This document shows positions 28,724 to 37,049 of a DNA stretch of 64,000 nucleotides, piece after piece. The DNA is from Marinomonas lutimaris (GTDB lineage: Bacteria; Pseudomonadota; Gammaproteobacteria; Pseudomonadales; Marinomonadaceae). Positions within the stretch are counted from its first letter, which is position 1. The number at the start of each line of letters is the position of its first letter. The translations under genes were made by a program, and so were the position numbers. The notes under the pieces were generated by a model. That model was not told the DNA's origin and made no database searches. It saw only the letters and a list, made by a program, of their open reading frames with translations. The DNA lies in assembly GCF_019426345.1 (NCBI RefSeq), contig NZ_JAHLLW010000008.1, positions 62,001 to 126,000 on the forward strand, given 5' to 3'.

Positions 28724-29601
28724 ATTCTGGCCTTTATTTTTTCTGAAATTGCGCCTTTACCAATGCCCTCAAAACCGTGGGCTTCAATGTGCACACCTGG
28801 ATTCTCTTCTGCTAATACATCGGCAATGTGTGCGGAAAGCGATTCAACTGTGGTATCGCAATCCAGCATGTAGACTTGATTGCTGTCGATTTTTAGCTCA
28901 AACAAACCTTGCTGGCTTGTGTAGCTAAAGCAGTGATAATTTACACCGTTTTCAGTGACCTGACTTATCAAATCTTCTTGGGTGCCTAAATAGATGTCTT
29001 CCCAACGCTTTGCCCAATCGTGTTCCATTGCAGCATTACGTGCGCCATCGGCGTAAATCTCAACCGTAGAACGATGACCATGAGCAATACGTTGGCAATT
29101 ACCTGCGTGTTTTTTCAAACCATGGCTGTATTGATATTGTGCGCCAGTAATTTGCTCTGGTGAAAAACGCACGCTAACGGCTTCTAATTCCGCTGGCAGC
29201 AGATTAAGAATTTGCGACTCAACCCATTTAGCAACCGCTTCTGGTGTGATTTCGGTCATTGGCAATACGCAAATGGCTTGAGTAGGTGTGTCACATTGAA
29301 ACACGCGTTTGTCGTCAGCTGTGGTTTTACTATGATCAAAGTGAAAGGATACGCGATCATCAGCTAATGGAGTCATAGTTGATCCGCTGTGCTCAGCAGG
29401 AATCGCCAGCATGTGATCAATGTTGTCATCCAGCCATTTCTTGATTTGTTTTTTCACGATACTGAAATCACAAATCATGCTTTCATCGTTTAACTTGCCG
29501 GTCAGCACAATGTCTGTCTGCCAGCTTTCGCCCAACAAACCACGTGTGGCGTCAAAGTAGGAAAAATCCACGTGGGTTAGGTTTTTTACAAATAGCTTCA
29601 A
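28720..29601 (-). CDS. 6-pyruvoyl-tetrahydropterin synthase-like protein with two PTPS-type halves
   Basis: The start is taken as TTG at 29601, because GGAG lies 7 bases before it and the protein then begins K-L-F-V-K-N-L-T, as expected for this family; the upstream ATG at 29694 adds 31 unlikely residues. The product has 293 residues. Both halves recall PTPS/QueD units: residues 1-80 hold VDFSYFDATRG and CDFSIVKKQIK, with DHMLAIP resembling the conserved D-H-x-x-L motif. Residues 150-290 hold HGHRSTVEIYADG and a late EAHGFEGIGKGA. It may act in pterin or 7-deazaguanine metabolism. The 4-base overlap with hisI points to cotranslation. Confidence 0.7.
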   Translation of the reverse strand: MKLFVKNLTHVDFSYFDATRGLLGESWQTDIVLTGKLNDESMICDFSIVKKQIKKWLDDNIDHMLAIPAEHSGSTMTPLADDRVSFHFDHSKTTADDKRVFQCDTPTQAICVLPMTEITPEAVAKWVESQILNLLPAELEAVSVRFSPEQITGAQYQYSHGLKKHAGNCQRIAHGHRSTVEIYADGARNAAMEHDWAKRWEDIYLGTQEDLISQVTENGVNYHCFSYTSQQGLFELKIDSNQVYMLDCDTTVESLSAHIADVLAEENPGVHIEAHGFEGIGKGAISEKIKARI

Positions 29602-29755
29602 CTCGCTACTCCTATGATTCTTAATGGCGCGTATCTTACCGTAAATAGAAGCAGCGTTATAGCTCGATACTAAAAAGCGCAAGCATAGGAACAAGAGTAG
29701 GAAGGGGCTTATAAGCAGAAAGATTTAAGTATTTGAAAATACATAAGAAAGGCGG

Positions 29756-29783
29756 TTGATATTTCGATTTGGCTGCGTATAAT
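29756..29783 (+). promoter_or_regulatory. Sigma-70 promoter of the 4.5S RNA gene
   Basis: TTGATA (29756-29761), a 16-base spacer and a perfect TATAAT (29778-29783) lie just before the SRP RNA. Transcription would begin near 29790, so the RNA 5' end needs processing. Confidence 0.65.
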
Positions 29784-29813
29784 TGCGCCCCAAGGTCAAC
29801 AAGCCTCCTTTAT

Positions 29814-29926
29814 GGTGTCTCTGCTGGTCCCCTCGCAACGATAAACCGTTAATCTGGTCAGGTCCGGAAGGAAGCAGCCACAGCGGTGGACTTGTGTGCC
29901 GAGGTGCGGCTGGTAGAGATGCCACC
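29814..29926 (+). ncRNA. ffs: Signal recognition particle 4.5S RNA
   Basis: The hallmark apical sequence is present: GTCAGGTCCGGAAGGAAGCAGCC, here at about 29857-29879, containing the GGAA tetraloop and the symmetric loop bound by Ffh. The flanks pair into one long hairpin: GGTG-TCTCT at the 5' side with AGAGATGCCACC at the 3' side, as in E. coli 4.5S RNA. Ends are set by the outer stem and may be off by a few bases. Confidence 0.93.
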
Positions 29927-30022
29927 TTAATCTCCCCAAAGTTCTAAACTCTGCCTTTTTCACATCATTTTTATTTCTTTGTATTCTCTTGCGTTAGCGA
30001 TATTTTTATTTTGCTTATGTCA

Positions 30023-30220
30023 TTACGGCCAATAAGATTCAGGCTCTACTCTTTGTTTTTCTGCTTCAATGCGTTTATAAATTTCTTCGCGATGTACTGT
30101 CACGTCTTTGGGTGCCGCCACACCGATTCGGACTTGTCCGCCTTTTATGCCTAGAACGGTTATTTGAATGTCATCGCCGATATTGATGGTTTCATTAGAG
30201 CGTCGAGTCAGAATTAGCAC
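30023..30220 (-). CDS. csrA: Carbon storage regulator CsrA
   Basis: The GTG at 30220 is the start: AAGGA lies 8 bases upstream and translation then gives the canonical M-L-I-L-T-R-R opening. The product has 65 residues. CsrA elements [20 protein letters not shown] and [10 protein letters not shown] are intact, including the RNA-binding Arg near residue 44. CsrA is a dimeric mRNA-binding repressor. The usual partners alaS and lysC are not beside it. It lies between the SRP RNA and a prophage-type repressor, so it may be an additional, island-linked copy. Confidence 0.92.
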
Positions 30221-30346
30221 GTTAGATATCCTTAAAAAGTTTATTTTCACAAACTCAAAGTTTAGTTAAATGTACTTTATTTTGTCAATAAAAATATACT
30301 TAGGTTGGAGGGGGTAGGAATATAAACGCGGAAAGATTGGAAAAGA

Positions 30347-30365
30347 AGCGGGCTGACTACCCGCT
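30347..30365 (-). terminator. Terminator hairpin at the end of the CI-type repressor gene
   Basis: The stem AGCGGG/CCCGCT with a 7-base loop overlaps the repressor stop codon. On the minus strand it is followed by TCTTTTCC. Confidence 0.5.
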
Positions 30366-31017
30366 AAAAGAGATATTTAGCTTCTATCACGACACCAATG
30401 ATCTGGCAGTGCTCATTAAATTCAATAGGACGATAATCTGGGTTTAATGGTTTTAAATACATTTGTCCCGCATCAATAATAAGCTTTTTAAATGTGATGT
30501 CGTGGGTGTTATTGAATTTTGCTACCACGAGGCAGTCGTTTTTTGCTGGAAGCTGTGGATCGACTAAAATCAAATGGCCTTCGCCAATACTTGGGCCATT
30601 GGGGGAGATCATGCTGTCACCAACCACTTCTAGCCAAAACGCTTGCAGGCTAACTGACGATGGCCCATGTTCCCATAGTACGTCTTTTCCTAAAGATGAA
30701 TAATCGCTGTCTTTACCCCATATAAAAGCCATTTCATGGCTAATAACTGGTATGAGCTTGGTGGTTGGTTGAGTGCTTTCGTGTGAGGGGCTCAACGCAT
30801 GTGTATTTCTTGGTGCAGCGGCGATGCCTGAAAATAACCAGTTTGCATCACAATGTAGCGCCTTTGTGAGAGATACAATGTACTTTCCGCCAGGCGAAGA
30901 AATACCGTTGAGCCATTGACTGACAGACCCTTTGGTCGCACCCGTCATTCTCGCTATGTCGACGGCTTTTAGATTTTGCTCCGTCATTTTTTGTCTGATT
31001 CTATCTGAAATATCCAT
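30364..31017 (-). CDS. CI-type phage repressor, HTH plus S24 peptidase domain
   Basis: A 217-residue protein. An XRE-type helix-turn-helix lies at residues 15-55 (DIARMTGATKGSVSQWLNG) and a LexA/CI-like S24 domain at about 90-217. The catalytic Ser135 is in V-G-D-S-M and the Lys partner in T-F-K-K-L near 177. No Ala-Gly or Cys-Gly cleavage dipeptide is seen in the linker (residues 62-95), so RecA-stimulated self-cleavage is uncertain. It is divergent from a Cro-like gene, the classic immunity arrangement, and opens the prophage-derived island. Confidence 0.88.
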   Translation of the reverse strand: MDISDRIRQKMTEQNLKAVDIARMTGATKGSVSQWLNGISSPGGKYIVSLTKALHCDANWLFSGIAAAPRNTHALSPSHESTQPTTKLIPVISHEMAFIWGKDSDYSSLGKDVLWEHGPSSVSLQAFWLEVVGDSMISPNGPSIGEGHLILVDPQLPAKNDCLVVAKFNNTHDITFKKLIIDAGQMYLKPLNPDYRPIEFNEHCQIIGVVIEAKYLF

Positions 31018-31029
31018 GTTAAGAATACT

Positions 31030-31084
31030 AAACTATCTTGAGTTTATTTTTATTTACTTGTAATGTTTATAAAAGTGAACTTTT
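31030..31084. promoter_or_regulatory. Candidate CI/Cro operators
   Basis: Two dyads lie in the 91-base CI/cro gap: AAACT-N6-AGTTT (31030-31045) and the near-perfect palindrome AAAAGTGAACTTTT (31071-31084). Their position between divergent repressor genes fits operator function. The two sequences are not clearly the same motif. Confidence 0.45.
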
Positions 31085-31108
31085 GGTGGTTTTTCGTAAG
31101 GATTGGTT

Positions 31109-31288
31109 ATGTATAAGGAAAAAGTGATTAAACACTTTGGGAGTCAGCGGCGTTTAGCGCAGTCATTAAACATTACTCGAAGCTCGGTTTCTCAATGGGG
31201 ATCTGTGATTCCAGAGAAGCAAGCCTTGAGAATAGAAAAGCTAACTTGTGGTGCATTGAAATACGATGCCAAGCTTTATTCGCGTTAA
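31109..31288 (+). CDS. Cro-like DNA-binding protein
   Basis: The ATG at 31109 follows AAGGAT at a good distance; a TTG two codons upstream is less likely. The 59-residue product closely follows the Cro pattern of lambdoid and Vibrio phages: M-Y-K-E-K-V-I-K-H-F-G-S-Q, the helix-turn-helix LAQSLNITRSSVSQWG, and VIPEKQALRIEKLT ending K-Y-D-A-K-L-Y. It is divergent from the CI-type repressor and should oppose it at shared operators. Confidence 0.88.
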   Translation: MYKEKVIKHFGSQRRLAQSLNITRSSVSQWGSVIPEKQALRIEKLTCGALKYDAKLYSR

Positions 31289-31701: not shown

Positions 31702-32266
31702 CTGTGGCGCTATAAAACCCCACGATTTACCCGCATTACTGGCTTCCATCAATAAGCAACCAAAGCAACGTCGCGTCTTCTTCATGACCCAACTGCTCCA
31801 CGCGACCCGCGAGGGCGAAACCAGTCTTGCCGAATGGAAACATTTTTTCTCCCAACCAACTGGAATGGTACATCCCGCCAGAGAACACCAAAAACGGCAA
31901 AGAGCACCGCTTGCCCATCACCCAACACGCCATAGACCTCATCAACAGCCTGCCCAAACGTGGCACCTACATATTCAGCGTGAAAAGGCATCAAACCCAT
32001 TACCACACGCACCATAGAGCGTTGACACCAAAGCCTCAGCGACGACGTCGGCATCAAGTTTACAAGTCACGACATATGCAAACGCGCCTGTGACAGCTGG
32101 CAAGACAAGAAGAGCAGGGATCGACCGGGCTTTCTTATTAATGGCAAGAGGGGGAGTGCTACTCAACCACGAACGTGACGGACTGGACAAACGCTACATG
32201 CACACCCATTCGAGAGAACAGATGCGCAAAGCGTTGGGGGAGTGGGGGTTGGTGTTTTCACAGTGA
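31702..32266 (+). pseudogene. Decayed tyrosine-recombinase (phage integrase) fragment
   Basis: Pieces of one integrase catalytic domain lie in order but in different frames. They are GAIKPHDLPALLASINKQ and LLHATREGETSLAEWKHF (with the first catalytic Arg in A-T-R-E-G-E), then WYIPPENTKNGKEHRLPIT with LINSLPKRGTYIF, then DVGIKFTSHDICKRACDSW (the H-x-x-R-like box reads HDICK), and finally LNHERDGLDKRYMHTHS holding the terminal Tyr region, stop at 32264-32266. A T6 run at 31843-31848 marks the first frame change. The N-terminal DNA-binding part is absent. The enzyme cannot be made, so the island is probably no longer self-mobile. Confidence 0.82.
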
Positions 32267-32307
32267 AATGGTTATATTCGAGTCAAGATTATGTAAATTT
32301 TTAAATA

Positions 32308-32327
32308 TACTGTACATGCATACAGTG
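32308..32327 (+). promoter_or_regulatory. LexA (SOS) box in front of the two-gene cargo operon
   Basis: CTGTACATGCATACAG (32310-32325) matches the gammaproteobacterial CTGT-N8-ACAG LexA consensus at all eight fixed positions. The flanking T-A before it extends the match to TACTGT; the right flank reads ACAGTG rather than ACAGTA. TATACT (32306-32311), a plausible -10, overlaps the left half-site, so bound LexA would block RNA polymerase. It lies 53 bases before the first cargo start codon. Confidence 0.85.
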
Positions 32328-32379
32328 TTATTCTATTCTGAATAAAGCATGGATGCGGTGTACGAAACAGGAGGTTTTA

Positions 32380-33453
32380 GTGCCAGTTATTTCTTATGGT
32401 CATACATTACATAAATTAAGTGTACATGCTACAGACCCAGTTGATGTTGCATTCCCTGCAGACACAAGTTATTTAGAGCAATATATTAATATGGTTGTTG
32501 AGGATGTGATTGCTAGCCCTAGAAGTTGTAAATTTAGGTTTGTTGAACCCTTCGAATTGGTCCCATCTAGACTTTTATCACTTATTAATAAAAGTGAAAC
32601 TTTTGAAGCTATTTCAGAAGATATTGTTAAGAAGCTGCATTCTGAAGAATTGGAAGTACAAAAGATAATTAAAAAGTTAAAAAATGAAGTAAGTAAAGGG
32701 GTCTTAATTCAAGTTTACTTTAATCATGATGGTTTAAATAAATATCTCATAATAAAAGTTGATGATAATGAGTTTCTAGACTTGACAACTCTGAAACTTA
32801 CTGATGGATTGCCCTCAGAAAAAACTAGAACACAAAAGACTGCTTTAATTACATTTGACGGAAATGAAATTTCAGAACTCTTGGTTTCCGATAGTAATAG
32901 TAAGATCTCAAAGTTTTGGTGTGATAGATTTCTTTGTGCTGAACCATTGGTTTCATCTGAAATAAATACTTTTGAATCTTATACATCGATAGATAAGGTT
33001 TTAAACAAAGTTAAAAAAGATTCAAGATATGATTATCTTTTACTTAAAAATGGAATGATTAATTATTATAGAAATAATGATGGCTTTGTTTTCGATGATG
33101 TTGTATCGATGATTAAAAACCATACAGTTGAAAATAAAAATATTTTAAATAAGGTTGAAAATTATGACGAAATTAAGTCGTATAAATTTGGTGAGATTTT
33201 CCCAGATATAATAACTGAAATTGAGTCTCTTCCTGATATAAAAGGCTTTGATAGAGCCTTTGATATTACTAAAAGTGCGATTAAGTCAAGATTAAGTAGC
33301 ACTGTTGTTTTGGATGAATTTTTTGATTTGAACATTAAAGGTGATCTTAAAGATTTGAAAGGGAAAATCAAAGCTGGGATAGAGACTGATGGTCGTAAAT
33401 TTATTAAAATATATTCTGAACTTGGATATAGAGAATTTGAGAAAGGTGAGTAG
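32380..33453 (+). CDS. Unrecognised soluble protein, first gene of SOS-boxed pair
   Basis: GTG at 32380 is the start, since a perfect AGGAGG lies 5 bases upstream (32369-32374); an ATG at 32353 would place that site inside the gene. The 357-residue product is Lys/Glu/Asp-rich with no signal peptide or membrane helix. I do not recognise the family. The middle part (LNKYLIIKVDDNEF, then KFWCDRFLCAEP) and a C-terminal FIKIYSELGYREFE recall, weakly, nucleoid-associated NdpA-type proteins. Base composition is clearly more AT-rich than the core genes, a sign of acquired DNA. Its TAG shares one base with the next gene's GTG (TAGTG), so the two are translationally coupled. Confidence 0.75.
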   Translation: MPVISYGHTLHKLSVHATDPVDVAFPADTSYLEQYINMVVEDVIASPRSCKFRFVEPFELVPSRLLSLINKSETFEAISEDIVKKLHSEELEVQKIIKKLKNEVSKGVLIQVYFNHDGLNKYLIIKVDDNEFLDLTTLKLTDGLPSEKTRTQKTALITFDGNEISELLVSDSNSKISKFWCDRFLCAEPLVSSEINTFESYTSIDKVLNKVKKDSRYDYLLLKNGMINYYRNNDGFVFDDVVSMIKNHTVENKNILNKVENYDEIKSYKFGEIFPDIITEIESLPDIKGFDRAFDITKSAIKSRLSSTVVLDEFFDLNIKGDLKDLKGKIKAGIETDGRKFIKIYSELGYREFEKGE

Positions 33454-35063
33454 TGATTAACTCTTTTGCTAATGATCTTATAAGGTTGTTTTTTGCTTCT
33501 GATTTTAAAGTTTACATTAGTAGCTTTGATAGCTTTCAAGTGAAAGCTAAAGTAAAAGCTGAGGAAATTTTCTATCCTAATGTTGACGAGTTGTTTGATT
33601 TATTTAAATTAGTTGAGGGGAAAAATTTACAGATTTCATTTGGTGGCTTTGGGAGTAGTGTAAGGTTTTCTACAAACAAAGATGATTACTCTGAAAAAAT
33701 GAGTGAATTGAAACAAGAAGTTCAAGCTTTAGATGATGATGAATTAGTTGAATTTGAGTTGGAGGTTTTAGATTTACGCAGTGAATCATCTGTTGATATA
33801 TTTGATAAAACAGCTTTCTTTTTATACTTATCTACCTTAAAAGCCCAAGCTCTTTTGGAAGAGTTTTCTAAATTTAACTTCAATGAAAAAATTGAGTTTA
33901 GGTTTTGGGAAGATATGAGTTCTTTTAATAGTGATTCAATTTATTTTTTCTCGACTTATCCACGCTCTGAACATTATCCAGCTTCGCATTCTGTTAATAA
34001 GCAAAAAAGAGAGCGTTTCATAGCAGATAGGGCCAAAGTAAGCCACTTTGTTAATGCTAAAAATAACTTTTTAATTCCTGATGATTTTAAGATTATTAGT
34101 GGTGATGCTTATGATGGGATATCTGATATTTTAAATGGTATTCTGGGGTGGTTATGTCTTATTTTTATATCGGATTTTTCTTCTGTTCATGATGATGATT
34201 TAGAAATACAGATTAAAGGTTATAAGAAAGTTCTTGATACACTGTCGTTTATTGAAATGAAGGAGTCTAAACATGATGAGATTTATAATGTTTTTTCATG
34301 GGCTTATTCAGACGGGAGTTTTGTCGATAAAATTGGAGTGGCTAGAAATGTAATATCAATACATCTGGTTCAGGGGCGTCTTCTTAATATGGAAGGTGGC
34401 GTTTTAGACTCTATTTTATCCGGTTATGATCTTTATCTTAAGGAAAACGTCAAGCAATATATCGAGATAAAAAACAAAATAAATGAGTTCTTATATGGAC
34501 AGTCGGATAAAGCGCTTGATTTGACTAAAAGTGTATTTTCTACCGTAAAAGCTGGGATCTGGACTTTTATGACCTTCTTTGTGACTGTATTCTTACTAAG
34601 AGCTATCAGTGGTAAGAGCTTGGGAGGTACTATAAGTTATGAGGTTCTTGTAGTTGCTTTCCTATTAGTCATTATTTCAAGTATTTACTTTGGGGTGTCT
34701 ATTTTTGAAATTAATGTTGACAAAAAAAGACTTCTAGAGCGATATGCTGAAGTTAGGAATAGATATAAAGATCTTCTGAATGAGTCGGATCTTAATAAAA
34801 TTATCAATGTGGATTTAGTATCTAAAAAAGAATCTACATATATTGATAGGAAAAGAAATTTATATTGTTTTGTTTGGTTTTTGATCTGTGCTTTTACGCT
34901 GATTACAGTTTGTTGGTTGTATAAATCAACTAATGAAGCCGTTGCGCCTTTACCAGCTAATACGAATATAGAGTCTGAGGAAATTATTTTGAACTTAAAT
35001 AATGCCCATATAAATTTTGGTTTAGAAAAAGACAATAGCTTTTTGACCCCTCCTAAATCCTGA
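33453..35063 (+). CDS. Unrecognised protein with three C-terminal membrane helices, second gene of SOS-boxed pair
   Basis: A 536-residue protein starting at GTG with AAAGGTGAG upstream. Residues 1-360 look soluble and mixed alpha/beta, rich in acidic and aromatic residues. Membrane helices are predicted by eye at about 368-385, 396-420 and 469-490, with a charged coiled-coil-like linker at 422-465 between the second and third. A 45-residue tail follows the last helix. No nuclease, NTPase or TIR motif was found. A soluble partner plus a membrane protein is an architecture shared by several abortive-infection systems, but no homology is claimed. It has the same AT-rich composition as its partner. 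Confidence 0.75.
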   Translation: MINSFANDLIRLFFASDFKVYISSFDSFQVKAKVKAEEIFYPNVDELFDLFKLVEGKNLQISFGGFGSSVRFSTNKDDYSEKMSELKQEVQALDDDELVEFELEVLDLRSESSVDIFDKTAFFLYLSTLKAQALLEEFSKFNFNEKIEFRFWEDMSSFNSDSIYFFSTYPRSEHYPASHSVNKQKRERFIADRAKVSHFVNAKNNFLIPDDFKIISGDAYDGISDILNGILGWLCLIFISDFSSVHDDDLEIQIKGYKKVLDTLSFIEMKESKHDEIYNVFSWAYSDGSFVDKIGVARNVISIHLVQGRLLNMEGGVLDSILSGYDLYLKENVKQYIEIKNKINEFLYGQSDKALDLTKSVFSTVKAGIWTFMTFFVTVFLLRAISGKSLGGTISYEVLVVAFLLVIISSIYFGVSIFEINVDKKRLLERYAEVRNRYKDLLNESDLNKIINVDLVSKKESTYIDRKRNLYCFVWFLICAFTLITVCWLYKSTNEAVAPLPANTNIESEEIILNLNNAHINFGLEKDNSFLTPPKS

Positions 35064-35309
35064 TCTACCATTACCTTGCACTGGCAAAATCCAGTGCTCA
35101 GAAACTCACCCCGTTTTTACCATGGCAGCCTAAAACACGCACCGCGTGTTTTTTTGTGGCCGAGATTCGCCTGTTATGGTGGGTCTGCTTCAGGCCAACT
35201 TCGGTTGGGCCGTGCCTTTGGGCGGTTGTTGCAACCTGAACTTAGATCCACCACCTTATTGAGATTGCAACCTCACGAGGTGGTCAAATAGACTCGCAGG
35301 AGGCCATAG
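35064..35309 (+). other. Phage-type leader region with Icd/Ash-like coding pattern
   Basis: The sequence before the KilA-N gene has the look of the leader that precedes P4-like satellite and prophage genes. One frame reads FACYGGSASGQLRLGRAF and then PELRSTTLLRLQPHEV, as in Icd-like/Ash family entries (TTG 35076 to 35291, 71 codons, no good start). GCAACCT occurs twice and the CCTCACGAGGTGG hairpin element lies near 35271. Whether it is translated or acts as RNA is unknown. Confidence 0.4.
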
Positions 35310-35900
35310 ATGGCTCATTTAATTATCTCTTCAAAAGACATCCGCACACTCGACGGATTGTATTCTCTTAATGATCTTCATAAAGCGGCTGGCAGTGAAA
35401 AGCGCCATGAACCGAATCGTTTTATTCGAATAGAAAAAACTAAAGAGTTAATAGAAGAAATTGAGCGTTGCCCAGAAATGGGTATCGGTGCAAAAGCAAT
35501 AAGAGGTGGCGAAAATCAAGGCACTTGGGTGTGCAAAGAATTGGTTTACGCTTACGTCATGTGGATCAGCCCGAAGTTCAACTTAGAAGTCATCCGCGCC
35601 TTTGAGCAAGCCCAACGGCCAGAACCCGAACTGGTGCAACAATCCTTACCCGCCCCTATCCAAGACGACGAAAAGCTCAAACTCATTAACGATGTCGCCA
35701 AATCCCTAGGAATAACAGAAAGCATCGCCGTCGTATCCGCCACCGACATCATGGCTATGATCCAAACCATCCGAAACTACCAAGAACAACTCGCCAGAAT
35801 CCAAACCAACCCCGCATGGGTTGACCAAACCATCGCGCGCGTCAAGGGCGCTATGATCGTCTTTATTGTCTTTTTTTCGAATGTACAAAGCCTAGATTAA
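35310..35900 (+). CDS. KilA-N domain phage protein
   Basis: A 196-residue protein with a KilA-N DNA-binding domain in residues 1-105: GLYSLNDLHKAAGSEKRHEPNRFI, the GTWVCKELVYAYVMWISPKFN segment, and VIRAFEQAQ. KilA-N proteins act as phage antirepressors or regulators. AGGAGG lies 6 bases before the ATG. The last 20 residues (from about A-M-I-V-F-I-V-F-F) switch abruptly from hydrophilic to hydrophobic. This suggests a 3' truncation or frameshift near an island junction. Confidence 0.8.
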   Translation: MAHLIISSKDIRTLDGLYSLNDLHKAAGSEKRHEPNRFIRIEKTKELIEEIERCPEMGIGAKAIRGGENQGTWVCKELVYAYVMWISPKFNLEVIRAFEQAQRPEPELVQQSLPAPIQDDEKLKLINDVAKSLGITESIAVVSATDIMAMIQTIRNYQEQLARIQTNPAWVDQTIARVKGAMIVFIVFFSNVQSLD

Positions 35901-36020: not shown

Positions 36021-36485
36021 ATGATTAAAACAAATTTAAATGTTGAGCCGGATACCAGTGCAATAATCAAAGCGCAGCAGTACCTGAAGCTGCATCAAGC
36101 GGATCTTGATACGTTAAAAATTGATGTGTTACTCAAAAATGGTCAAAAAGCTGAATTTGAATTACCCAAATTGACGCTTGATGCACTTGTTCAAGTGTTA
36201 GGTCAATTGGCTAAGGATGGCGATGATCAGTTCTTTGAACAGCAGATTGACTTTGATAAAATGGTTAGTCCTGCAGTGGCGGCTAAATTTCTTGGGATGT
36301 CACGACCAAAGGTAACAGGCTATATTTTAGCTGGGCAAATTCCATCTATGAAAGTGGGTACACATCATCGTGTAAAAATGGCAGATGTGTTGTTATTTAA
36401 AGAGAAGCTTTCTAGTGCCAAGGGATCAAGAGAAGAGACTCTTAGTTTAATTGCTAACTTTGAGCAAGAGTCAGATTCTATGTAA
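36021..36485 (+). CDS. Excisionase-family HTH protein, probable antitoxin
   Basis: A 154-residue protein with an acidic helical N-terminal half and a MerR/Xis-type helix-turn-helix at about residues 82-135 (VSPAVAAKFLGMSRPKVTGYI, then G-Q-I-P-S-M-K-V-G-x-H-H-R-V). It is followed 9 bases later by a PIN-domain gene. Known two-gene modules pair such an HTH antitoxin with a PIN ribonuclease, so it most likely neutralises the toxin and represses its own promoter. Confidence 0.78.
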   Translation: MIKTNLNVEPDTSAIIKAQQYLKLHQADLDTLKIDVLLKNGQKAEFELPKLTLDALVQVLGQLAKDGDDQFFEQQIDFDKMVSPAVAAKFLGMSRPKVTGYILAGQIPSMKVGTHHRVKMADVLLFKEKLSSAKGSREETLSLIANFEQESDSM

Positions 36486-36494
36486 GGGATTGTT

Positions 36495-37049
36495 ATGGAC
36501 GATAAAATTTTGCTGGATGCAAATGCCCTGTATTCACAGCCATTGAGGATGGTGTTTCTTAATTTGGTGCAGTTAGATGAGTGTACTACTCAGTTCTTTT
36601 GGACTGATAAGATAGATGCAGAATGGTCTAATGCTTTAATTCGCAGGTATCCCGAAAGTAAAGACGTCATTATTAAGCAGGTAAATTCGATTAAGGCGTC
36701 CTTTTTTGATCGCTATGTTTTAGGCTACGAGCCATTAATAAATCAGTTTGATCTTCCTGATCCAGATGATCGTCATGTTCTGGCCGCCGCAGTAAAGACG
36801 GGTTGTAATATTATTGCGACAGATAACATTAAAGACTTTCCAGCAAAATTATTGGCTGAGTATGGGGTTAGGGCAATGACAAGAGATGAGTTGATGTGTT
36901 TCTTGTTCACGAATGAGAAAAAGGGTGTCATGCTGGCTTTAGATAATTTTGCTCGTGTATATAAAGATCCGGAGATCACAGTCGAAGATTTGCTAATAAA
37001 GCTTGATCGTTCAGTGCCAAGTTTTACGCATTTAGTAAGAGGGTCATGA
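36495..37049 (+). CDS. PIN-domain ribonuclease toxin, VapC-like
   Basis: A 184-residue PIN-domain protein. The expected acidic residues are present: D8 (LLDANAL), E43 (DAEWSNAL), D91/D92 (DPDDRHVLAAAV) and D110 (IIATDNIKDFP). This belongs to the larger PIN group with a C-terminal helical extension. It should cleave RNA when free of the upstream antitoxin, and such modules often stabilise islands. Start ATG has a GGGATTG site before it. Confidence 0.8.
   Translation: MDDKILLDANALYSQPLRMVFLNLVQLDECTTQFFWTDKIDAEWSNALIRRYPESKDVIIKQVNSIKASFFDRYVLGYEPLINQFDLPDPDDRHVLAAAVKTGCNIIATDNIKDFPAKLLAEYGVRAMTRDELMCFLFTNEKKGVMLALDNFARVYKDPEITVEDLLIKLDRSVPSFTHLVRGS

Follow-up and report, generated by a model that had tools for sequence, protein, structure and literature searches.

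A mobile two-gene unit encoding a YejK-like protein and a membrane protein in Marinomonas lutimaris: a candidate phage-exclusion system

What might two coupled genes do that lie in AT-rich DNA between a broken integrase and a phage-type regulator, directly behind a match to the LexA (SOS) box? The question is raised by positions 32308-35063 of a 64 kb stretch of the Marinomonas lutimaris genome (contig NZ_JAHLLW010000008.1; the whole 64 kb stretch is called the window below). An earlier note on this DNA had proposed a membrane-acting system, perhaps for abortive infection or defence and induced by DNA damage or infection. The comparisons described here indicate that the genes form one conserved mobile unit, in which gene 1 has the predicted fold of the nucleoid-associated protein YejK and gene 2 encodes a membrane protein. 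From these features we infer a mobile phage-exclusion system made of a DNA-side protein and a membrane effector, probably abortive in its action, and we hold this defensive reading with modest confidence. It is to phage exclusion that the carriage as phage cargo (once at a defence hotspot), the pairing of the two partners, the DNA-side fold and the membrane protein together point.

Relatives of the pair were traced from genome G165 and one Photobacterium replicon by tblastn and alignment search, the latter yielding 11 contigs of IMG/VR (L007-L017) and later genome G576, the same-genus genome G704 and Escherichia coli. G704 was the one genome bearing the pair among 47 others of the window's taxonomic family. 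Seventeen intact loci were compared (the window, L023 of G704, L005, L006, L020, L007-L017 and L048, of which L007 and L008 are near copies). Co-occurrence elsewhere, singled out beforehand as one of the points on which the earlier note's reading could fail, was found throughout: both genes were present, adjoining and in the same strand and order in all 17 loci. When 369 genomes drawn from the window's class were searched with the gene 1 profile and, separately, with the gene 2 profile, the same three genomes came up, with the genes adjacent in each. The third of these genomes, G171, bears a decayed copy (a stop within the gene 1 match and a gene 2 frame of 181 residues), which was counted for co-occurrence and excluded from the alignments. 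Pairwise distances for gene 1 and gene 2 were also closely correlated (r 0.965 over 136 pairs, reached in 0 of 5000 permutations). The constant adjacency, the correlation and the recovery of the same three genomes thus argue that the unit is real, rare and mobile.

The sample is biased in that most loci were found via gene 2. Searches by tblastn with window gene 1, window gene 2 and L008 gene 2 gave no match in 50,697 phage records, and a plasmid search returned the one Photobacterium replicon for window gene 2 and nothing for L008 gene 2. A pattern scan of the viral contigs for gene 1 is judged insensitive, because it gave zero matches though gene 1 adjoins gene 2 in 11 of 11 viral loci. Three candidate loci were dropped: L002 and L003, where the gene 2 match covered only 27-29 residues inside unrelated genes (by eye, cytochrome-oxidase-like loci), and L021 (E 6.7e-4), by eye an ABC permease beside an ABC ATPase.

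Neither window protein gave anything above cut-off in Pfam, PADLOC or NCBIfam, and their matches in PHROGs were families of unknown function (phrog_30064 for gene 1, E 2.6e-17; phrog_32650 for gene 2, E 1.5e-38). The gene 1 protein was modelled with AlphaFold2 on a 12-row alignment, A3 (predicted local distance difference test (pLDDT) 80, predicted TM-score (pTM) 0.70). Foldseek with this model ranked E. coli YejK (9be2) first, with an E of 8.9e-6 and a probability of 1.00, as the sole PDB match at E<=0.001. Against Pfam NA37 (PF04245), three of the 12 aligned rows gave matches at E<=0.1, the best being 2e-13. When nine homologues were scanned singly, the proteins of L009 (40.8 bits) and L020 (31.8 bits) passed the cut-off of 24.6, a chromosomal NdpA serving as control with 225.2 bits; the NdpA of the window's own genome is a separate gene. 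The RefSeq name of E. coli gene 1 is 'nucleoid-associated protein'. On the strength of the model we assign gene 1 the YejK/NdpA fold with good confidence and place it loosely in the NA37/YejK family, and the earlier note was therefore wrong to count gene 1 among proteins that could not be recognised. YejK itself is described as binding DNA and interacting with gyrase and topoisomerase IV (PMC8934667, PMC9927451).

A separate likeness was seen at the gene 1 N-terminus, where profile positions 3-78 (approximately residues 1-75, window 32380-32610) match residues 127-203 of AcrVIA1 at E 6.3e-4. The AcrVIA1 piece scores 27.2 bits against the gene 1 profile and 2000 shuffles reach at most 11.5; it matched no single family member by phmmer or blastp. 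The likeness perhaps reflects a shared module or the remnant of a fusion.

Gene 2 is without a named relative in the sequence and fold searches made. The best E of its profile against PDB sequences was only 0.48, the SLATT profile scored 9.4 bits against a cut-off of 55, and SLATT_4 appeared at E 0.097 in one of 12 homologues. Membrane helices were called in 17 aligned rows at a Kyte-Doolittle cut-off of 1.5. In the window protein the hydrophobic C-terminal helices fall at approximately residues 367-385, 399-417 and 471-489; all three pass in 13 of the 17 rows, the window included, and one or two pass in L010, L013, L014 and L015. An extra hydrophobic stretch at 222-240 passes in the window and same-genus proteins only. 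Hydropathy thus bears out the large soluble part and three C-terminal membrane helices of the earlier note. Just ahead of helix 1 stands a conserved stretch, within which S323, K330, N332 and Y336 are invariant in the 17 rows and Y328, L329 and N341 nearly so. Taken together, the alignments show the two genes to behave as one conserved unit, with gene 2 a predicted membrane protein that combines a large soluble part with a conserved juxtamembrane motif. A reading of gene 2 as a HEPN ribonuclease, for which the motif is R-x4-6-H, was rejected; the candidate RNxxxxH at 298-304 keeps its H in 13 of 17 rows and its RN in 16 of 17. The E. coli gene 2 (L048:9804-11552 and L049-L052) carries a run of 25, 20, 8, 19 and 18 Pro-Gln units across five near-identical genomes, possibly a tail of variable length after the last membrane helix.

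A toxin-antitoxin pair, with gene 2 as membrane toxin and gene 1 as antitoxin, would also fit two mobile genes that are coupled and of which one codes for a membrane protein. Both proteins are large, however, and the YejK fold of gene 1 is not known from antitoxins, so that we consider this explanation very unlikely.

Where the pair is carried also bears on its role. PHROG scans covered ten neighbouring genes in six loci, and L007, L010, L011, L014 and L017 were read by eye only. In L008 a DNA primase stands on one side of the pair and a portal/terminase block on the other, and the near copy L007 has the pair at the same primase-portal position by eye. Elsewhere the pair directly follows a CI-like repressor (L013). 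Genes in its vicinity include a head maturation protease and an HNH gene in L009, an integrase and a metallo-protease in L015, an endolysin in L016 and, at a distance of 3.3 kb, a terminase in L012. The site between gpA and gpQ of P2 is presented, in PMC9122126, as an anti-phage hotspot that holds old and tin and in which new systems were validated; by analogy of position, the L008 primase-portal site corresponds to this hotspot. In E. coli the pair is present in 30 of 5426 complete genomes, with its first 2436 bases at least 99% identical across all 30; in three of them the match falls on two hypothetical proteins, which would suit a split gene 2, and an insertion sequence is present in one of these cases. 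In the five E. coli genomes inspected, the pair lies within an island with a recombinase and an integrase, and ffs stands at the island end in four of these, the stretch from the fifth being too short to show it. These contexts place the unit on both prophages and islands, and together with the base composition of the locus (28.6-37.1% G+C per kb over 32001-35000, compared with 42.4% for the whole window) they support the AT-rich acquired cargo of the earlier note. In two of the five records, a gene for a 'RipA family octameric membrane protein' follows the E. coli pair within the same island, with a few genes in between (L050:11408-12091, L051:10213-10896); a literature search on this protein found nothing.

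Comparison with G704 gives an indication of how the pair has evolved since its arrival. Identity to G704 is 88% for the block 31715-35845 and 72% for 28742-31279, a stretch with the island's repressor and a PTPS-type gene of the chromosome; the difference suggests a later transfer of the block with the pair between the two species. For gene 1 the non-synonymous (dN) and synonymous (dS) divergences between window and G704 are 0.018 and 0.083, and for gene 2 they are 0.079 and 0.475. Gene 2 is uneven along its length: codons 1-100 have 97-99% nucleotide identity, and codons 151-200 have 65%, with dS saturated and dN 0.31, which looks like an exchange of alleles in the central part of the gene. 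On average the pair looks to be under purifying selection, while the adjoining integrase is broken in both species.

The same observations bear on whether the genes serve the element that carries them. Gene 1 could then be a mobile regulator or anti-silencer like NdpA, or the two proteins together could tether the element's DNA to the membrane for its partition or replication. There are precedents in three papers: NdpA2, encoded on the integrative and conjugative element PAPI-1, works together with TprA on genes silenced by MvaT and increases transfer (PMC8565334), Pseudomonas phages carry NdpA/YejK genes (PMC10305613), and NdpA contacts ParB (PMC9927451). However, the pair sits at different places in different phage types, purifying selection seems to maintain it in the window's island despite the broken integrase there, and this explanation leaves the membrane partner unaccounted for. 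We regard it as quite unlikely.

The LexA box was confirmed where the earlier note had it, overlapping TATACT and just before the two genes, the GTG start codon of gene 1 at 32380 being 52 bases 3' of the 20-mer. The site, TACTGTACATGCATACAGTG, is the sole exact match to TACTGT-N8-ACAGTR within the 64 kb. Agreement with the half-site consensus was ruled out as significant by itself, since the genome shows no excess of plain CTGT-N8-ACAG (49 sites, versus 48 for the reversed control). The box is made credible by its core and by the boxes at lexA, recA and UmuD/S24 genes of the same genome: lexA, recA, three UmuD-like genes and one further S24 gene carry CTGT-N8-ACAG 26-144 bases upstream of the profile match, and the island's own repressor, the sixth match to the lexA profile, has no such box upstream. 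In a matrix built from the six same-genome sites the pair's box ranks 14th of 49, with 1.8% of random cores scoring equally well; against a matrix from 13 E. coli sites its score is 19.2, which lies between the lowest and highest of those sites (14.5-24.3) and is equalled by 0 of 1000 shuffles. Its identity in G704 gives weak support, because the flanking DNA is nearly identical as well, and a strict sigma-70 scan, which called no plus-strand promoter over the box, counts against SOS control. From the sequence, SOS control of the pair seems to operate in this genome.

This control is not a property of the family as judged from the 21 upstream regions scored. Strong boxes precede gene 1 in seven (the window, G704 and five near-identical E. 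coli copies), and no box was found in the other 14, comprising the 11 viral contigs, L005, L006 and L020. The DNA-damage induction proposed earlier is accordingly supported by sequence for this genome and does not extend to the family. Both box-bearing lineages are island copies, and the E. coli and window proteins are 31% (gene 1) and 38% (gene 2, local) alike. The trees of gene 1 and of gene 2 both place E. coli beside L007/L008, viral-contig loci without a box (support 98/96 and 100/99), and not beside the window, so that the box was gained at least twice or lost repeatedly.

Strong boxes in two such distant, separately grouping lineages, together with the membrane helices of gene 2, would suit an SOS-induced module for growth arrest or persistence, in which LexA frees the pair, gene 2 hits the inner membrane or cell division in the manner of TisB, DinQ or SulA, gene 1 links to the nucleoid and any phage exclusion is incidental. 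The 14 boxless regions, with all 11 viral-contig loci among them, and the several copies at phage cargo sites speak against such a module, which we consider unlikely.

According to the favoured model of phage exclusion, gene 1 would work on DNA or on the machinery of DNA topology, much as YejK interacts with gyrase and topoisomerase IV. It would thereby sense a foreign replicating genome. It would then act on gene 2, whose membrane helices would be the effector, either stopping growth or blocking the invader at the inner membrane. LexA would keep the pair low, and DNA damage would raise it, in this genome and in the E. coli islands; the phages carrying the pair would use other promoters. The apparent upkeep of both genes by purifying selection next to a dead integrase, and the E. 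coli system with a YejK domain of PMC13092281, also count in favour of this model. Of the earlier proposal, the membrane protein stands and defence is plausible.

A number of results weigh against this model. For gene 1, the match to 9be2 has a TM-score of 0.41/0.43 and a root-mean-square deviation of 12.5, the window protein has no NA37 match at E<=1, seven of the nine homologues scanned singly, the E. coli protein included, have none at E<=0.01, and hhalign of A3 with the same-genome NdpA gave no sequence link (probability 0.3); DNA binding by gene 1 is therefore not assured. For gene 2, the AlphaFold2 model (pLDDT 74, pTM 0.58) has a poorly modelled membrane half and no match at E<=0.001 in PDB or BFVD, so that its role as effector is a guess. 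PADLOC-DB 2.0.0 holds no match for either window protein or for five neighbours of the E. coli pair, so that the defence-island enrichment to be expected from the earlier note is not shown. The viral contigs are biased to prophages by the choice of collection. PADLOC searches with homologues gave JetA (0.0021) and LeoBC (0.26) in one of 12 each, the '2TM effector' (0.017) in two of 12 and PycTM (0.2) in one of 12. A match to PD-T4-6 (6.8e-5) was set aside, as it falls on the low-complexity PQ tail of E. coli gene 2.

A bolder version of the model would treat the pair as an immunity class of its own. Here a YejK-like protein supplied by phages would monitor DNA topology, or the activity of topoisomerases, on the replicating genome of an invader and trigger a membrane effector of a new three-helix type; bacterial islands would have acquired the pair from phages and then, on at least two separate occasions, placed it under SOS control. 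We regard this version as possible but doubtful.

The features of the locus are collected in Table 1, and they agree with the layout given by the earlier note (a GTG gene with AGGAGG, a one-base TAGTG overlap, and products of 357 and 536 residues). Base 33453 belongs both to the stop codon of gene 1 (TAG) and to the start codon of gene 2 (GTG). We take the upstream remnant to be a tyrosine recombinase by eye, from its motifs and without a profile match. Beyond the KilA-N gene, window 36021-37049 encodes an HTH_17 protein followed by a PIN-domain protein (PIN score just below cut-off), possibly a toxin-antitoxin pair; where the window has these genes, G704 has a umuC/umuD-type pair, by eye, near the island (L023:2632-4361).

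Table 1. Positions of the two genes, their putative control elements and flanking phage-type genes in the window.
Feature	Position	Strand	Basis or remark
LexA (SOS) box TACTGTACATGCATACAGTG	32308..32327	+	overlaps TATACT -10-like hexamer 32306-32311; identical in same-genus G704 (L022/L023)
Ribosome-binding site AGGAGG	32369..32374	+	5 bases 5' of gene 1 GTG
Gene 1, 357-residue soluble protein, predicted YejK/NdpA (NA37) fold	32380..33453	+	open reading frame, Foldseek, NA37 in some homologues, phrog_30064
Gene 2, 536 residues: ~365-residue mainly soluble part, then three predicted membrane helices	33453..35063	+	open reading frame, phrog_32650, AlphaFold2, hydropathy
Broken tyrosine-recombinase (integrase) remnant	31710..32265	+	broken in same-genus G704 copy too
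Phage repressor, HTH_3 + Peptidase_S24	30364..31017	-	domain/profile matches
KilA-N domain phage-type regulator	35310..35900	+	domain/profile matches in window; adjoins pair in G704 too (G704 copy by eye)

The pair would give the poorly understood YejK/NdpA family a mobile role, and it joins a YejK-fold protein to a membrane protein that is nameless in every library used. It also allows a test of whether SOS control was added to phage cargo once settled in a chromosome, and with the E. coli copy such a test is easy in a laboratory strain.

Among known systems, Kiwa would work in a similar way to the pair, consisting of a membrane protein, KwaA, and a DNA-binding protein, KwaB. Unlike Kiwa, however, neither window protein is matched in PADLOC, which presumably contains Kiwa models, gene 1 matches YejK alone in the PDB at E<=0.001, and gene 2 is far larger than KwaA. 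The likeness to the anti-CRISPR protein AcrVIA1 (PDB 6vrb), presumably from a Listeria phage, is confined to the N-terminal stretch of gene 1. With YejK/NdpA (PF04245, 9be2) gene 1 shares its predicted fold, and NA37 is found in some homologues, but the window protein is too distant for NA37 or for alignment with NdpA, and gene 1 is accompanied by a membrane protein in the intact loci that were compared. The systems of the P2 hotspot (old, tin and others; PMC9122126) occupy the same site as the pair in L008 and L007 and are different proteins; the words 'nucleoid' and 'YejK' are absent from the main text of that paper. The one report tying YejK to defence, in a literature search on YejK/NdpA and phage or defence with supplements and most subscription journals outside its scope, is the DefensePredictor study (PMC13092281, 2026). 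Its strains are mostly ECOR, and none of the 30 pair-bearing E. coli genomes listed has an ECOR name; its system may or may not be of the same family as the pair. That system resembles the pair in kind: a 'YejK nucleoid-associated domain' is named there as one of the domains found in E. coli systems with which, in an assay, phage plating or plaque size was reduced.

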